Assembly (NCBI RefSeq): GCF_001457655.1
Contig: NZ_LN831035.1
Coordinates: 558,001 to 622,000, forward strand
Length of the DNA stretch: 64,000 nt
Reading direction: 5' to 3'
From: Haemophilus influenzae
GTDB lineage: Bacteria > Pseudomonadota > Gammaproteobacteria > Enterobacterales > Pasteurellaceae
In this document: positions 6,159 through 9,973 of the stretch, piece after piece
How the letters are laid out: the number at the start of each line of letters is the position of its first letter
How positions within the stretch are numbered: the stretch's first letter is position 1
The notes under the pieces: generated by a model
What the model saw: only the letters and a program-made list of their open reading frames with translations
Database searches by the model: none
Told to the model about the DNA's origin: nothing
Position numbers and translations under genes: made by a program

Positions 6159-6791
6159 ATGAAAGGAAAGTTTATTGTCATTGAGGGCTTAGAAGGTGCG
6201 GGGAAAAGCTCCGCTCATCAGTCTGTTGTGCAAGTCTTGCATGAACTTGGTATTCAAGATGTCGTGTTTACACGCGAACCGGGTGGAACGCCACTGGCTG
6301 AGAAATTACGTCATCTCATCAAACATGAAACCGAAGAACCCGTGACAGATAAAGCAGAGTTATTAATGCTTTATGCGGCTCGTATTCAGTTGGTGGATAA
6401 CATAATTAAACCTGCGTTAATGCAAGGGAAATGGGTGGTGGGCGATCGTCACGATATGTCATCTCAGGCGTATCAAGGTGGCGGACGTCAATTAGATCCG
6501 CATTTTATGCTTACTTTGAAAGAAACCGTATTAGGTGATTTTGAGCCAGATCTCACAATTTATTTGGATATAGATCCAATTGTCGGTTTAGCGCGAGCTC
6601 GTGGACGTGGTGAATTAGATCGTATTGAGCAAATGGATTTAGATTTTTTCCATCGCACTCGAGCACGCTATTTAGCGTTAGTAAAAGAGAATCCAAAAGC
6701 AGTCGTAATTAATGCTGAGCAGAGTATTGAACTTGTTCAAGCTGATATCGAAAGAGCGGTAAAAAATTGGTGGAAATCAAACGAAAAATGA
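6159..6791 (+). CDS. tmk: Thymidylate kinase
   Basis: Tmk phosphorylates dTMP to dTDP with ATP, an essential step in dTTP synthesis. The 210-residue protein has the P-loop GLEGAGKSS at residues 10-18, [11 protein letters not shown], the [15 protein letters not shown] block and a lid region [13 protein letters not shown]. The ATG at 6159 has GGAAG upstream and gives the family N-terminus [10 protein letters not shown]; reading further upstream would overlap mltG with unrelated residues. In E. coli holB follows directly; here the conserved order is interrupted by a repeat array and an autotransporter. The last 17 or so codons of tmk form the start of the first repeat unit. Confidence 0.96.
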
Positions 6792-6805
6792 CCGCACTTT
6801 TAAAA

Positions 6806-6842
6806 TAAAAAATCGGCAGAAAATTTCCTGCCGATTTTTTTG
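6806..6842. terminator. Bidirectional terminator at the tmk/lav border (first of four copies)
   Basis: AAATCGGCAG is mirrored by CTGCCGATTT around a short AT loop, flanked by A and T runs. The same hairpin recurs near 7087-7123, 7368-7403 and 7650-7686, once in each ~280-bp unit and once before the intact autotransporter gene. It suits termination of both tmk (plus) and lav (minus). Confidence 0.8.
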
Positions 6843-6945
6843 TTACAACTTAACTTAAAACGTCCACTGTAAATTCAGCGCACCTTGTTTAGCGTGATGA
6901 TGTTTGCCTGTTTGGCGATTGAATGTAGCTTGTAAGGTTAAGCTC

Positions 6946-7016
6946 GTAGGGTGGGCGTAAGCCCACGAAAAAAAAGAATATTATTAATAATACGCGTGGG
7001 CTTACGCCCACCCTAC
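6946..7016. repeat. ~70-bp hairpin, copy 1 (GTAGGGTGGGC family)
   Basis: GTAGGGTGGGCGTAAGCCCA at 6946 is mirrored by its complement ending at 7016, with an AT-rich centre. The outer arm contains a smaller nested palindrome (GTGGGC..GCCCAC). The GC-rich arms contrast with the AT-rich surroundings. Similar GTAGGGTGGGC palindromes are, from memory, scattered through many bacterial genomes as REP- or MITE-like elements. Confidence 0.85.
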
Positions 7017-7227
7017 ATTGGCTGATATCGAAATAGCGGTAAAAAATTGGTGGAAATAAAACGAAAAATGACCGCACTTTCAGAATAAAAAAATCGGCAG
7101 AAGATTTTCCTGCCGATTTTTTTGTTACTACTAAACTTAAAACGTCCACTGTAAATTCAACGCGCCTTGTTTAGCGTGGTGATGTTTGCCTGTTTGGCGA
7201 TTGAATGTTGCTTGTAAGGTTAACCTT

Positions 7228-7297
7228 GTAGGGTGGGCGTAAGCCCACGAAAAAAAGAATGTTATTAATAATACGCGTGGGCTTACGCCCACCCTAC
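7228..7297. repeat. ~70-bp hairpin, copy 2
   Basis: Near-identical to copy 1: same GTAGGGTGGGC arms, centre one base shorter with GTTATT in place of ATTATT. It sits at the same place in repeat unit 2, immediately after the lav-tail segment. Confidence 0.85.
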
Positions 7298-7508
7298 ATT
7301 GGCTGGAATTGAAAATTCGGTAAAAAATTGGTGGAAATCAAACGAAAAATGACCGCACTTTTAAAATAAAAAATCGGCAGAGAATTTCCTGCCGATTTTA
7401 TTTTGTTACAACTTAACTTAAAACGTCCACTGTAAATTCAGCGCGCCTTGTTTAGCGTGGCGATGTTTGCCTGTTTGGCGATTGAATGTCGCTTATAAGG
7501 TTAAGCTC

Positions 7509-7578
7509 GTAGGGTGGGCGTAAGCCCACGAAAAAAAGAATGTTATTAATAATACGCGTGGGCTTACGCCCACCCTAC
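7509..7578. repeat. ~70-bp hairpin, copy 3
   Basis: Appears identical to copy 2 by eye, at the same place in repeat unit 3. No fourth copy occurs beside the intact lav gene. Confidence 0.85.
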
Positions 7579-7697
7579 ATTGGCTGGAATTGAAAATTCG
7601 GTAAAAAATTGGTGGAAATCAAACGAAAAATGACCGCACTTTTAAAATAAAAAATCGGCAGAAAATTTTCCTGCCGATTTTTTTGTTACTACTAAGC

Positions 7698-9973
7698 TTA
7701 AAACGTCCACTGTAAATTCAACGCACCTTGTTTAGCGTGGTGATGTTTGCCTGTTTGGCGATTGAATGTGGCTTGTAAAGTTAAGTGAGATTTGATTTTC
7801 ACTGCTATACCAAATTGGCTTTCAATCGCGGTTTTGTTGTTTATTACTCGACGCTCTCCGTCTATTTCCACGCCGAACGGTTTGCTGTGGTAAAGCGTGT
7901 TCACAGCGGCGAAAGGCTGAATGACGATATTTTTATTGAGTAAAAATTGCGCTTTAGCTTGAACGCCCACTCGGCTTTGTAATTGGCGAGAGCCAAGTAA
8001 ATTCACTTTACTATTACCACTATCGGTTAAGCCGCCATTTACACCCAAATAAGTCAATTGTGCCTGTGGTTGTAGGTAAAAACGAATTTGAGTGCCTTTC
8101 CCCGTTAAGTGTTCTGCTAATAACGCGTTGTAACCCGCTTCAATTGAGGCGGTGATACCTTTTGAAGTAAAACTTTCTGTGCCATCTTCAGTGTTAATGC
8201 GGTGGCGGAAGCGTTGATATTGTACCCAGCTGTCAATATATGCCCCTGTTTGCTTATCTTGAAGCTGATGCCAAGTGACATAAACGCCTGCGCCAAAGCC
8301 TTTCATACTTCCTGTTGTAACATTGCCTGTATCTGGATTACGAAAAGTACTACGTTGTTCTGCTTGTCCACCCATTAAACCAAAGGAAAATTGGTAGTCT
8401 TGATTCTGTAAGGAGAAAACATCGCCACCAAGTTGTATGCCTTTACGATTTCCTTCTACTGGCGCGGTTTTACCTTGTACATCTTGACTTAAGTGACCGC
8501 TAATTAAACGCAACCACAAGCCTTTGCGTGGCAAAGTGCGGTCAAAAATATCGCTGTTTTTGTCGTTCAAACGCAAGGCGAATAAGGTATTGGCGGCTTG
8601 GGCTTGTTGTGCATAGGAGGCGACAAGATGAGTTGGAATTGCGAGTTTTTCTACACCGATACAAAAACCGTTTGGACATTGTTGTAAAAATAAACGATAT
8701 CTGCCTTTTTTATATTCTTCTAAAAGATAAAACGCATTCGGTTCAACATCGGTTTCTGTTTTGATGAGTTGTCGGTAAGTCAGGTTTTTTAAATTGTTTA
8801 AGGCTTTTTCTTCAAAAACAATAGCCGTTTTCCCTGTTACTTTGCTTTTTAACGTTAATACGGGCTTGTCAGCCTCTCTTTCGCTTAAATCATAAGCAAA
8901 GTGAATACTCGAATAATCCGCATAATGGTCTTCCGAGCTATTCTGATAAATGTATTCTGAGTTACTATGATAACCTATATCATTGCCTTCTCTTTTCAAA
9001 GATTTTTCGGGTAATAAGGCATTATCGGGGGTTGGTCTAATGCGACTTTCGCCTACAACAAGGCTGTCATTTTTGGTATTAAAACGAATATGACCATTGT
9101 TTAAATTCAAATAACTGACATCAGAATCCCAACGAGGCTCCCAAAGAGAATTCTCTAAGTCTACTCGGTAAAGATGAATAATTTGCCCAATGACATGGGA
9201 ATTTTCGGAAACTTTTAATCTAGGAAGGGGGAGAGTGAGTATAGACCAATCTGCATATAACGGTATTGGACTACGTATGTAGTGTTTATAATACAAATCA
9301 GCAACATTACCAACAGCAAGAATTTCACTGTTAATATTGCTATGTTTTACTACTTTATAAGAATTGAAAATATCATTCTTATAAAATTCATACAGCCAGG
9401 TGTAGGGCATTCCATCTGAATAAAAAAATCCTAACGAATGGAAGTAAGTACCTTTTTTTAATCTTGTTCTAAATTCATCGATAAATTGTTTAGCTTGTTC
9501 TTCCGTATTGCCATTTCTTTCTTTAACGCCAAATCCCTGTACGAAAGCAGCCGTGTAGCCGGGTGTATAAGGGCTGTCGAAAAAAGAGATCTTTTTGTCA
9601 GGATCAATAGGTTTATCATTATAGTATGAACCAATAACTGGATACGAGAAATTTCCTGTTGCTGCCCCCTTAATGTCATGACGGAGACCAGTTTCTTTTG
9701 GTATATCAAGCCTGAATAGATCATCTTTCCAATATTCACTATTTCTATCGCGGAGTTTTTTTAAGCGGGTAATTTCATCATCAGTGAGCTTGGTTTTGTC
9801 GTAAACGTAATCAACAGCCAAAAGCGGAGAGGTATAAAGAATAGAAAAAAATAGACTTACAATAAATGATTTTTTAAACTTCTGCTTGCTTGCTTGCTTG
9901 CTTGCTTGCTTGCTTGCTTGCTTGCTTGCTTGCTTGCTTGCTTGCTTGCTTGCTTGCTTGCTTCGAGTTTCAT
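7698..9973 (-). CDS. lav: Lav-like phase-variable autotransporter, translationally OFF as read
   Basis: Type V secreted surface protein. In the main frame the product reads KKSFIVSLFFSILYTSPLLA (signal peptide) then VDYVYDKTKL, a ~400-residue passenger with a CPNGFC cysteine pair, and from about residue 435 of the 707-residue segment (counted from 9821) a ~270-residue autotransporter beta-barrel starting GLWLRLISGHLSQD and ending LNLQWTF. The only good start is the ATG at 9973 (AAGGA nine bases upstream), followed by MKLE and the GCAA tract encoding repeated ASKQ. That ATG is out of frame with the barrel frame: translation stops at 9859-9857. Gain of one unit or loss of two restores a ~759-residue protein. 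Naming follows H. influenzae Lav, a GCAA-repeat autotransporter related to neisserial AutA/AutB; passenger function is unknown. Confidence 0.8.
9883..9963 (-). repeat. (GCAA)n simple-sequence repeat, 20 units, phase switch in lav
   Basis: An uninterrupted 4-base periodicity over 81 bases (20 full units), GCAA on the lav strand, lies between the ATG and the signal peptide. A tetranucleotide unit shifts the frame with each gain or loss, the classical contingency-locus arrangement in Haemophilus. From the ATG (9973) to the first codon of the barrel frame at 9821 is 152 bases, not a multiple of 3, so this count is OFF. Confidence 0.97.

Follow-up and report, generated by a model that had tools for sequence, protein, structure and literature searches.

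A REPIN-bounded tandem array of tmk and lav gene ends in Haemophilus influenzae, a possible scar of exchange between two lav loci

Why should the ends of two convergent genes be repeated in tandem, with hairpins between the copies, beside a phase-variable autotransporter gene? This question is raised by a 64,000-nucleotide stretch of the Haemophilus influenzae genome (assembly GCF_001457655.1, contig NZ_LN831035.1, positions 558,001 to 622,000; hereafter the window), in which the thymidylate kinase gene tmk and the autotransporter gene lav (autB) face each other across such an array. The reading that we favour, with moderate confidence, is that the array is a tandem duplication bounded by REPINs, i.e. 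REP (repetitive extragenic palindromic) doublets forming hairpins, and that it is a scar left by DNA traffic between two lav loci. These are the tmk-holB locus of the window and a second locus, through which the traffic would have passed, flanked by an mdaB/rimO-like gene on one side and a rep-like helicase gene on the other (hereafter mdaB-rep).

The array consists of three tandem units of 280-282 bp and a fourth copy that lacks a REPIN and merges into intact lav (6741-7784). Each unit contains 51 bp of tmk tail, a DNA-uptake word, a two-way terminator, about 85 bp of antisense lav tail (28 codons and the stop), and a 70-bp REPIN hairpin. An earlier note on this DNA had described three ~280-bp units with a partial fourth running into lav, a description borne out by Tandem Repeats Finder (6757-7785, period 281, 3.7 copies, 93% matches), by the unit spacings in a repeat search of the window (282, 281, and 280), and by comparison across genomes. 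Its extent of 6741..7797 is right at the start, though the shared part of the fourth copy stops slightly earlier, at 7784, and the uptake word, present in every copy, was absent from its description. The hairpin that it placed in each unit exists as an element, but the arrangement is one of n hairpins to n+1 segments: with T denoting the ~202-bp segment of tmk tail, uptake word, terminator, and lav tail, the order reads tmk-T-REPIN-T-REPIN-T-REPIN-T-lav (three REPINs, four T segments), and the hairpin therefore stands at the joints. The tmk tails of copies 2-4 are 88-96% identical to that of copy 1.

The hairpin is formed by two inverted copies of GTAGGGTGGGCGTAAGCCCACG, that is, by paired GTAG-REPs whose palindromes are inverted with the GTAG termini outward (GTAGGGTGGGC...GCCCACCCTAC), with 22-bp arms and folding energies of -45.9 to -46.0 kcal/mol. 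Half-sites of this REPIN family are dispersed in the window genome (22 at no more than two mismatches), and the six exact half-sites of the GTAAG type all lie inside the array. To place this subtype, we draw on a comparison of the tmk-lav locus in ten Haemophilus genomes, almost every one from a different species: the window genome (G000) and G001-G009, among them H. haemolyticus M19501 (G001) and H. aegyptius NCTC8502 (G006). The array's subtype occurs at several places in G001, G002, G003, G006, and G007. Amid GTAAG-type REPs, G002 carries an intact REP-associated tyrosine transposase (RAYT; NF047646, 174 bits against a cut-off of 80), and G003 carries, likewise among such REPs, a RAYT 98% identical to it. 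The cognate RAYT was not found in G000, where the search turned up an IS200-like fragment and, below the family cut-off, one divergent protein resembling RAYT, but nothing more; the link of this REPIN type to a RAYT is thus seen in relatives and not in the host. Because the exact half-sites are confined to the array and no intact RAYT was found, the subtype looks imported into G000. Both REPINs of the G001 array are without one arm. As for other identities, the Rfam matches listed for the array all fall short of their gathering scores. The best of the bacterial ones, Aggregatibacter sRNA 41 (39 bits against a cut-off of 97), and those to plant and animal microRNA families, all sub-threshold and based on hairpin likeness, were dismissed as chance or a shared stem. 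Regular arrays of single GTAAG-type REPs also occur, with periods of ~60 bp (L149, G007:C1:1466000-1467000) and 43 bp (L146, G001:C20:216700-218500).

Among the ten genomes, lav adjoins tmk in five (G000, G001, G002, G003, and G006), and tmk overlaps holB in the five without lav at this place (G004, G005, G007, G008, and G009). Arrays are present in three of the five lav-at-tmk genomes, with three units in G000 and two each in G001 and G002; in G003 and G006, T occurs once. Unit number is not invariant: of the copy-number change for which the array was suggested to be a hotspot, what is seen is this difference between species. The lav homology ends at one point (GTTAA or GTTAAG) in all seven units of the three genomes, extending an observation of the earlier note on the window. 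A wider search of 140 genomes with the array matched 21. Ten of them are the Haemophilus genomes; the other 11 belong to a second genus (g38) and match solely in the tmk tail, over the first 60 bp. The possibility that the array is an artefact of assembly, also raised beforehand, now appears next to impossible: the copies within an array differ by single-nucleotide polymorphisms, three genomes hold differing arrays at one site (two of them among the nine other genomes), the tandem repeat of M19501 was reported independently in 2016, and a database protein, P0001, spans such a joint. Open reading frames across the joints (86 and 51 aa) were considered as genes, and one database relative was found, P0001 (97 aa, 77% identical, one contig, six member sequences); its whole coding sequence was not found in the DNA of the compared genomes, and it probably comes from another assembly carrying such a joint. 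No function is claimed for these frames.

The connection to a second locus comes from the REPIN loop and the adjoining joint. Exact sites of the loop GAATRTTATTAATAATAC number nine in the ten genomes, seven in the arrays (3 + 2 + 2) and two at mdaB-rep (G002 and G003), with none elsewhere; moreover, the joint CTACATTGGCTACATTAGCTGGAATTG is common to mdaB-rep of G006 and the array units of G001 and G002. At mdaB-rep, G003 carries the order REPIN-tmk tail-terminator-lav, which constitutes a second lav copy, and in G006 and G001 a REPIN with a different loop, a tmk tail, and a terminator are followed directly by the rep 3' end. G005 has a decayed version of REPIN-tmk tail-terminator, which gives weak support only. 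Of the remaining genomes, G008 has lav and neither REPIN nor tmk tail, G002 has a REPIN without a tmk tail, in G000 and G007 the mdaB-like gene is present but a REPIN is not, and the stretches examined in G004 and G009 cover the rep side only. The earlier note had proposed that a hairpin element joined a lav tail to a tmk tail and that the joint was then amplified. The hairpin at the joint, the amplification, and a varying copy number all survive in our account, with the refinement that the hairpin is a REPIN whose loop and tmk-tail joint belong to mdaB-rep.

The second lav locus is occupied in two of the ten genomes (L141, G003:C10:14000-21200; L140, G008:C58:5000-12000). In G003, lav is present at both loci with different passenger types; their barrels match (89% over 1035 bp), and elsewhere matching is limited to 200 bp at the opposite end. 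The passenger next to the array is of the G000 type in both G000 and G001 but of another type in G002, and since the neighbours differ in this way, array and passenger have been reassorted. Absence of lav from mdaB-rep in G006 and G001 would roughly fit its deletion between short repeats resembling ATTTTATT, which flank it in G003. In G005, the mdaB side of the locus (L048, G005:C1:792000-801000, ~3500-4640) is 74-77% identical to G006 and the neighbouring rep end 91-93%. G005 tmk is 94% identical to that of the window, and the mdaB stretch of L048 is locally very diverged or of poor quality.

We hypothesize that the array arose in four steps. First, as the shared joints suggest, lav would have been copied from tmk-holB to mdaB-rep together with a tmk tail and terminator, landing directly beside a resident REPIN. 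Second, the REPIN-T unit would have been generated by a duplication whose breakpoints lay at that REPIN's outer edge and 85 bp into lav, a geometry visible in the units. Third, homologous exchange within the ~200-bp T, most likely by natural transformation, would have moved the unit into tmk-lav; such an exchange leads to n REPINs and n+1 segments. Fourth, copy number, which differs between the genomes, would then have shifted; the simplest route is crossing-over between direct repeats of ~280 bp, accompanied by a degree of exchange between copies. Haemophilus is naturally competent, which makes transformation a plausible route. This route is also suggested by pneumococcus, in which donor DNA partly repeated in the chromosome yields tandem duplications (merodiploids) by transformation (PMC3784515), and a related process, homology-facilitated illegitimate recombination, combines one homologous with one illegitimate end (PMC3240628). 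These cases concern other bacteria and mostly larger segments, whereas that of lav is read from sequence alone.

If the joint of the lav tail at the REPIN edge were mere coincidence, other REPINs should be without such joints. This was tested by comparing, for every REPIN pair, the 400 bp on its left with the 400 bp on its right, at sites hand-listed from half-site searches; these were mostly exact matches, so that degenerate REPINs are under-sampled, and some regions gave no pair under the pattern. The survey comprised 79 pairs, one of them counted twice (L153 = L198); in G001, the two REPINs of the array were too broken to enter. A direct repeat across the REPIN was found in 16 of the 79 pairs, and in 11 it measured 79-212 bp and lay no more than 12 nt from both edges. 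Five of these 11 pairs are in the tmk-lav arrays of two genomes, and six, out of the 74 remaining pairs, are at three further loci; the other five repeats are short or do not abut on both sides (L152, L164, L167, and L181, twice). As a control, random window positions away from the array showed any such repeat in one of 300 cases, these positions coming from one genome and not being matched for intergenic location. The three further loci are at a gene head (L144, G006:C1:498900-500500, and L192 in G005), at a gene tail (L145, G001:C20:222000-223800, with two pairs, and L147, G003:C4:60300-61300), and at a third place (L150, G003:C6:9600-12700). At L144, L145, L147, and L150, direct host copies of 79-145 bp stand on either side of the REPIN.

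The gene-head locus offers a graded series across the ten genomes: a single head in G004, G008, and G009, all lacking an intact REPIN (in G009 a decayed REPIN is discernible by eye), one head with one REPIN in G000, G001, G002, G003, and G007, and two heads in G006 (two REPINs) and G005 (one REPIN). This series shows the order at this locus to be REPIN first and duplication later, with the duplication joint ~9 nt past the REPIN edge. REPIN and flank numbers are equal in G006 and at L150, and stand as n to n+1 at L145, at L147, and in G005. Stretches of 60-71 bp of the L144 gene-head flank also adjoin REPINs elsewhere (G000:C1:423522-423581 and G006:C1:397378-397449), as if this DNA had been carried along with the REPIN.

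These results bear on another account, in which a REPIN inserted in place, through the RAYT system or hairpin repair, duplicating its ~200-bp target in one step; crossing-over would have amplified the product, and the mdaB-rep copy would be a later export via REPIN homology. It would explain why the REPIN lies exactly between direct copies (repeats 0-12 nt from both edges), a single insertion suits n REPINs per n+1 segments, as seen likewise at L145, at L147, and in G005, and an intact RAYT exists in two genomes with GTAAG-type REPINs. We nevertheless regard it as rather unlikely. IS200/RAYT-type insertion is not known to create long target duplications, no cognate RAYT was found in G000, and the REPIN preceded the duplication at the gene-head locus. 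Moreover, ATTGGCTA, just past the REPIN edge, is common to the units of G001 and G002 and to mdaB-rep of G002 (ATTGGCT in G000), and a clean insertion would not carry it.

Several points weigh against the traffic between two lav loci that we favour. The intermediate REPIN-T-REPIN-T-lav was seen at mdaB-rep in none of the ten genomes. G002 has an array yet no tmk tail at mdaB-rep, which would mean that the locus was replaced or that the direction was reversed, and G006 and G001, which do have the tmk tail there, carry a different REPIN loop. On the 5' side of the REPIN, CYC precedes other REPINs too, so that little weight can be placed on this part of the joint; CCC at this position was dismissed as proof of an mdaB-rep origin, and the loop pattern was used instead. 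The survey loci L144, L145, L147, and L150 come from ten regions picked first as clustered-looking, and 66 later regions added only L192, the orthologue of L144. The sample amounts to ten genomes of almost as many species, with copy number compared between species. Finally, homogenisation within genomes is weak, and concerted evolution is only suggestive: when ten copies from three genomes were permuted (2000 shuffles), grouping by genome gave 87 for the lav tail, 1411 for the tmk tail, 453 for the terminator, 59 for terminator and lav tail together, and 277 for all; by array position, the corresponding figures were 744, 75, 1841, 1548, and 311.

Exchange among the copies can nonetheless be traced at particular sites. 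True tmk genes are of the GATAT type in all ten Haemophilus genomes, and REPIN-linked tmk tails are of the GGAATT type in eight of ten cases, the exceptions being the second locus of G001 (altered) and unit 2 of G000 (converted). The GATATC of that unit, in place of GGAATT, is apparently the footprint of a conversion from tmk into the unit. AAGG, which holds a letter fixed in the units, precedes the joint in all seven unit tails, in none of seven intact Haemophilus lav genes, and in the single gonococcal copy; this distribution suggests one origin of the joint and shows no unit sequence entering lav. The idea that the array donates barrel-end sequence to lav accordingly finds no support, the 28-residue tail protein being nearly invariant as well. 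In pilS-like silent-cassette arrays, variable partial copies feed an expressed gene, a property that the lav array, with its nearly invariant tail, does not share. The direction observed is instead into the units, i.e. the tmk tail of unit 2 and the synonymous lav-tail variants. Relative to the lav consensus, the seven unit tails show 30 synonymous and 13 other changes and eight intact tails 19 and 5, against 51:201 for random change, counts that are descriptive only because the rows are related. As the changes in unit tails are mostly synonymous, most of this variation seems to derive from functional lav genes. The stop codon in the lav tail of unit 3 marks the beginning of decay.

Could the array be maintained by a function? 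One possibility is selection as a stacked two-way terminator insulating essential tmk from convergent, phase-variable lav, since four two-way stems and three REPIN hairpins stand between the two genes. The stems, of 11-13 pairs, are bordered by T runs on either side and fold on the + strand with energies of -15.3 to -17.0 kcal/mol, and their pattern occurs four times in the window, in the array only; of the array stems, a consensus terminator scan lists that of copy 3 alone. Both arms are kept in all ten array copies of the three genomes (seven were folded; those of G001 are looser). We consider such selection improbable, given that two of the five lav-at-tmk genomes manage with one terminator and an arm is missing from each of the two G001 REPINs; terminator stacking, as proposed in the earlier note, is plausible but unforced. 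A second possibility is that the array is retained as a multiplier of uptake words beside lav, favouring the uptake of lav alleles by transformation. The word ACCGCACTT is intact in all four copies of the window, where no other 851-bp stretch has four, and it has been proposed that transfer is helped by words flanking the lav segment at either end (PMC5635059). However, the word is intact in only two of three copies in G001 and one of three in G002, being broken in the rest, and of the 70 words of the window five lie within 54102-55216, a similar density, which makes this explanation very improbable. The lost REPIN arms and broken words give no sign of constraint on either element. We judge the array to be a recombination scar with possible side effects, for whose existence no function is needed; these side effects may include additional termination where tmk and lav converge, and a larger homology arm for lav exchange.

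Tandem clusters of REPINs are known from other bacteria. Pseudomonas fluorescens SBW25 has 16 clusters of nearly identical head-to-tail REPINs with flanking host DNA (Bertels and Rainey 2011, PMC3116915), and tandem clusters occur in other GTAG families as well (PMC3733652). The likeness to the lav array lies in the head-to-tail order of REPIN plus flanking host DNA. In the SBW25 scheme, the REPIN is within the unit and REPIN and flank numbers are equal, as opposed to three and four in the window and two and three in G001 and G002; because of these unequal numbers, we class the lav array as a variant of the tandem REPIN cluster. Compared with the SBW25 clusters as described there, the lav array differs in that its repeated DNA is two gene ends with a terminator and an uptake word, that no cognate RAYT was found in its host, and that it is common to several species and can be traced to another locus.

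The tandem repetition of the autB and tmk 3' ends was itself reported for H. haemolyticus M19501 by Arenas et al. 2016 (PMC5118866), at the same locus as the array considered here. The main text of that paper mentions no palindromes, hairpins, or inverted repeats and names one strain with the repeat; a REPIN, a second locus, or an H. influenzae case was not found in the portion examined. No description of a REPIN at lav or of the H. influenzae array was found in the literature searched, which included few subscription papers and no supplements.

Davis and colleagues in 2001, as cited in PMC5118866, reportedly described the transfer of lav/autB to Neisseria along with tmk and holB ends. As in the proposed transfer to mdaB-rep, lav there travels with a piece of tmk tail, but the single gonococcal locus examined (L036) has one tmk tail and no REPIN match.

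More generally, and tentatively, REPIN edges in Haemophilus might be recurrent breakpoints for host duplications of 80-210 bp, making REPIN-separated, amplifiable arrays of gene ends which, at lav, would provide homology arms that help tmk-holB and mdaB-rep swap passenger alleles, both inside a species and from one species to another. On the favoured account, a puzzling repeat next to the gene of a phase-variable adhesin can be read as a record of DNA exchange, and mobile REPIN hairpins are tied to local gene-end duplication. With REPIN-abutting duplications at four loci, one of them with a graded series of genomes, whether REPINs cause the duplication of their flanks is now a testable general question. 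The comparison has also brought to light a second site of lav, where the passenger in one genome is of a different type.

Table 1. Coordinates of the array and neighbouring features in the window
Feature	Position	Strand	Remarks
tmk, thymidylate kinase	6160..6791	+	Open reading frame; nine relatives match in nucleotide sequence at this place; name as in PMC5118866
T copy 1	6741..6942		True tmk tail; opens with the last 51 bp of tmk (6741-6791)
REPIN 1	6946..7016		GTAGGGTGGGCGTAAGCCCACG ... inverted; RNA fold -46.0 kcal/mol
T copy 2	7021..7223		tmk tail of true-gene type (GATATC), unlike the remaining REPIN-linked tails
REPIN 2	7228..7297
T copy 3	7302..7505		Stop codon inside lav tail
REPIN 3	7509..7578
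T copy 4	7583..7784		Runs without a REPIN into intact lav
Two-way terminator-like stems	6806..6840; ~7087-7122; ~7368-7402; ~7647-7682		Folding, pattern search
DNA uptake words	6791..6799; repeats at 7071, 7352, 7633	-	AAGTGCGGT on the - strand
lav/autB autotransporter body	7698..9821	-	Pfam Autotransporter beta-domain
Tetranucleotide phase-variation tract	9883..9963	-	20.2 copies
holB	10172..11156	+

In this assembly, lav read from the ATG at 9973 is out of frame across the tetranucleotide tract, i.e. in the phase OFF state.

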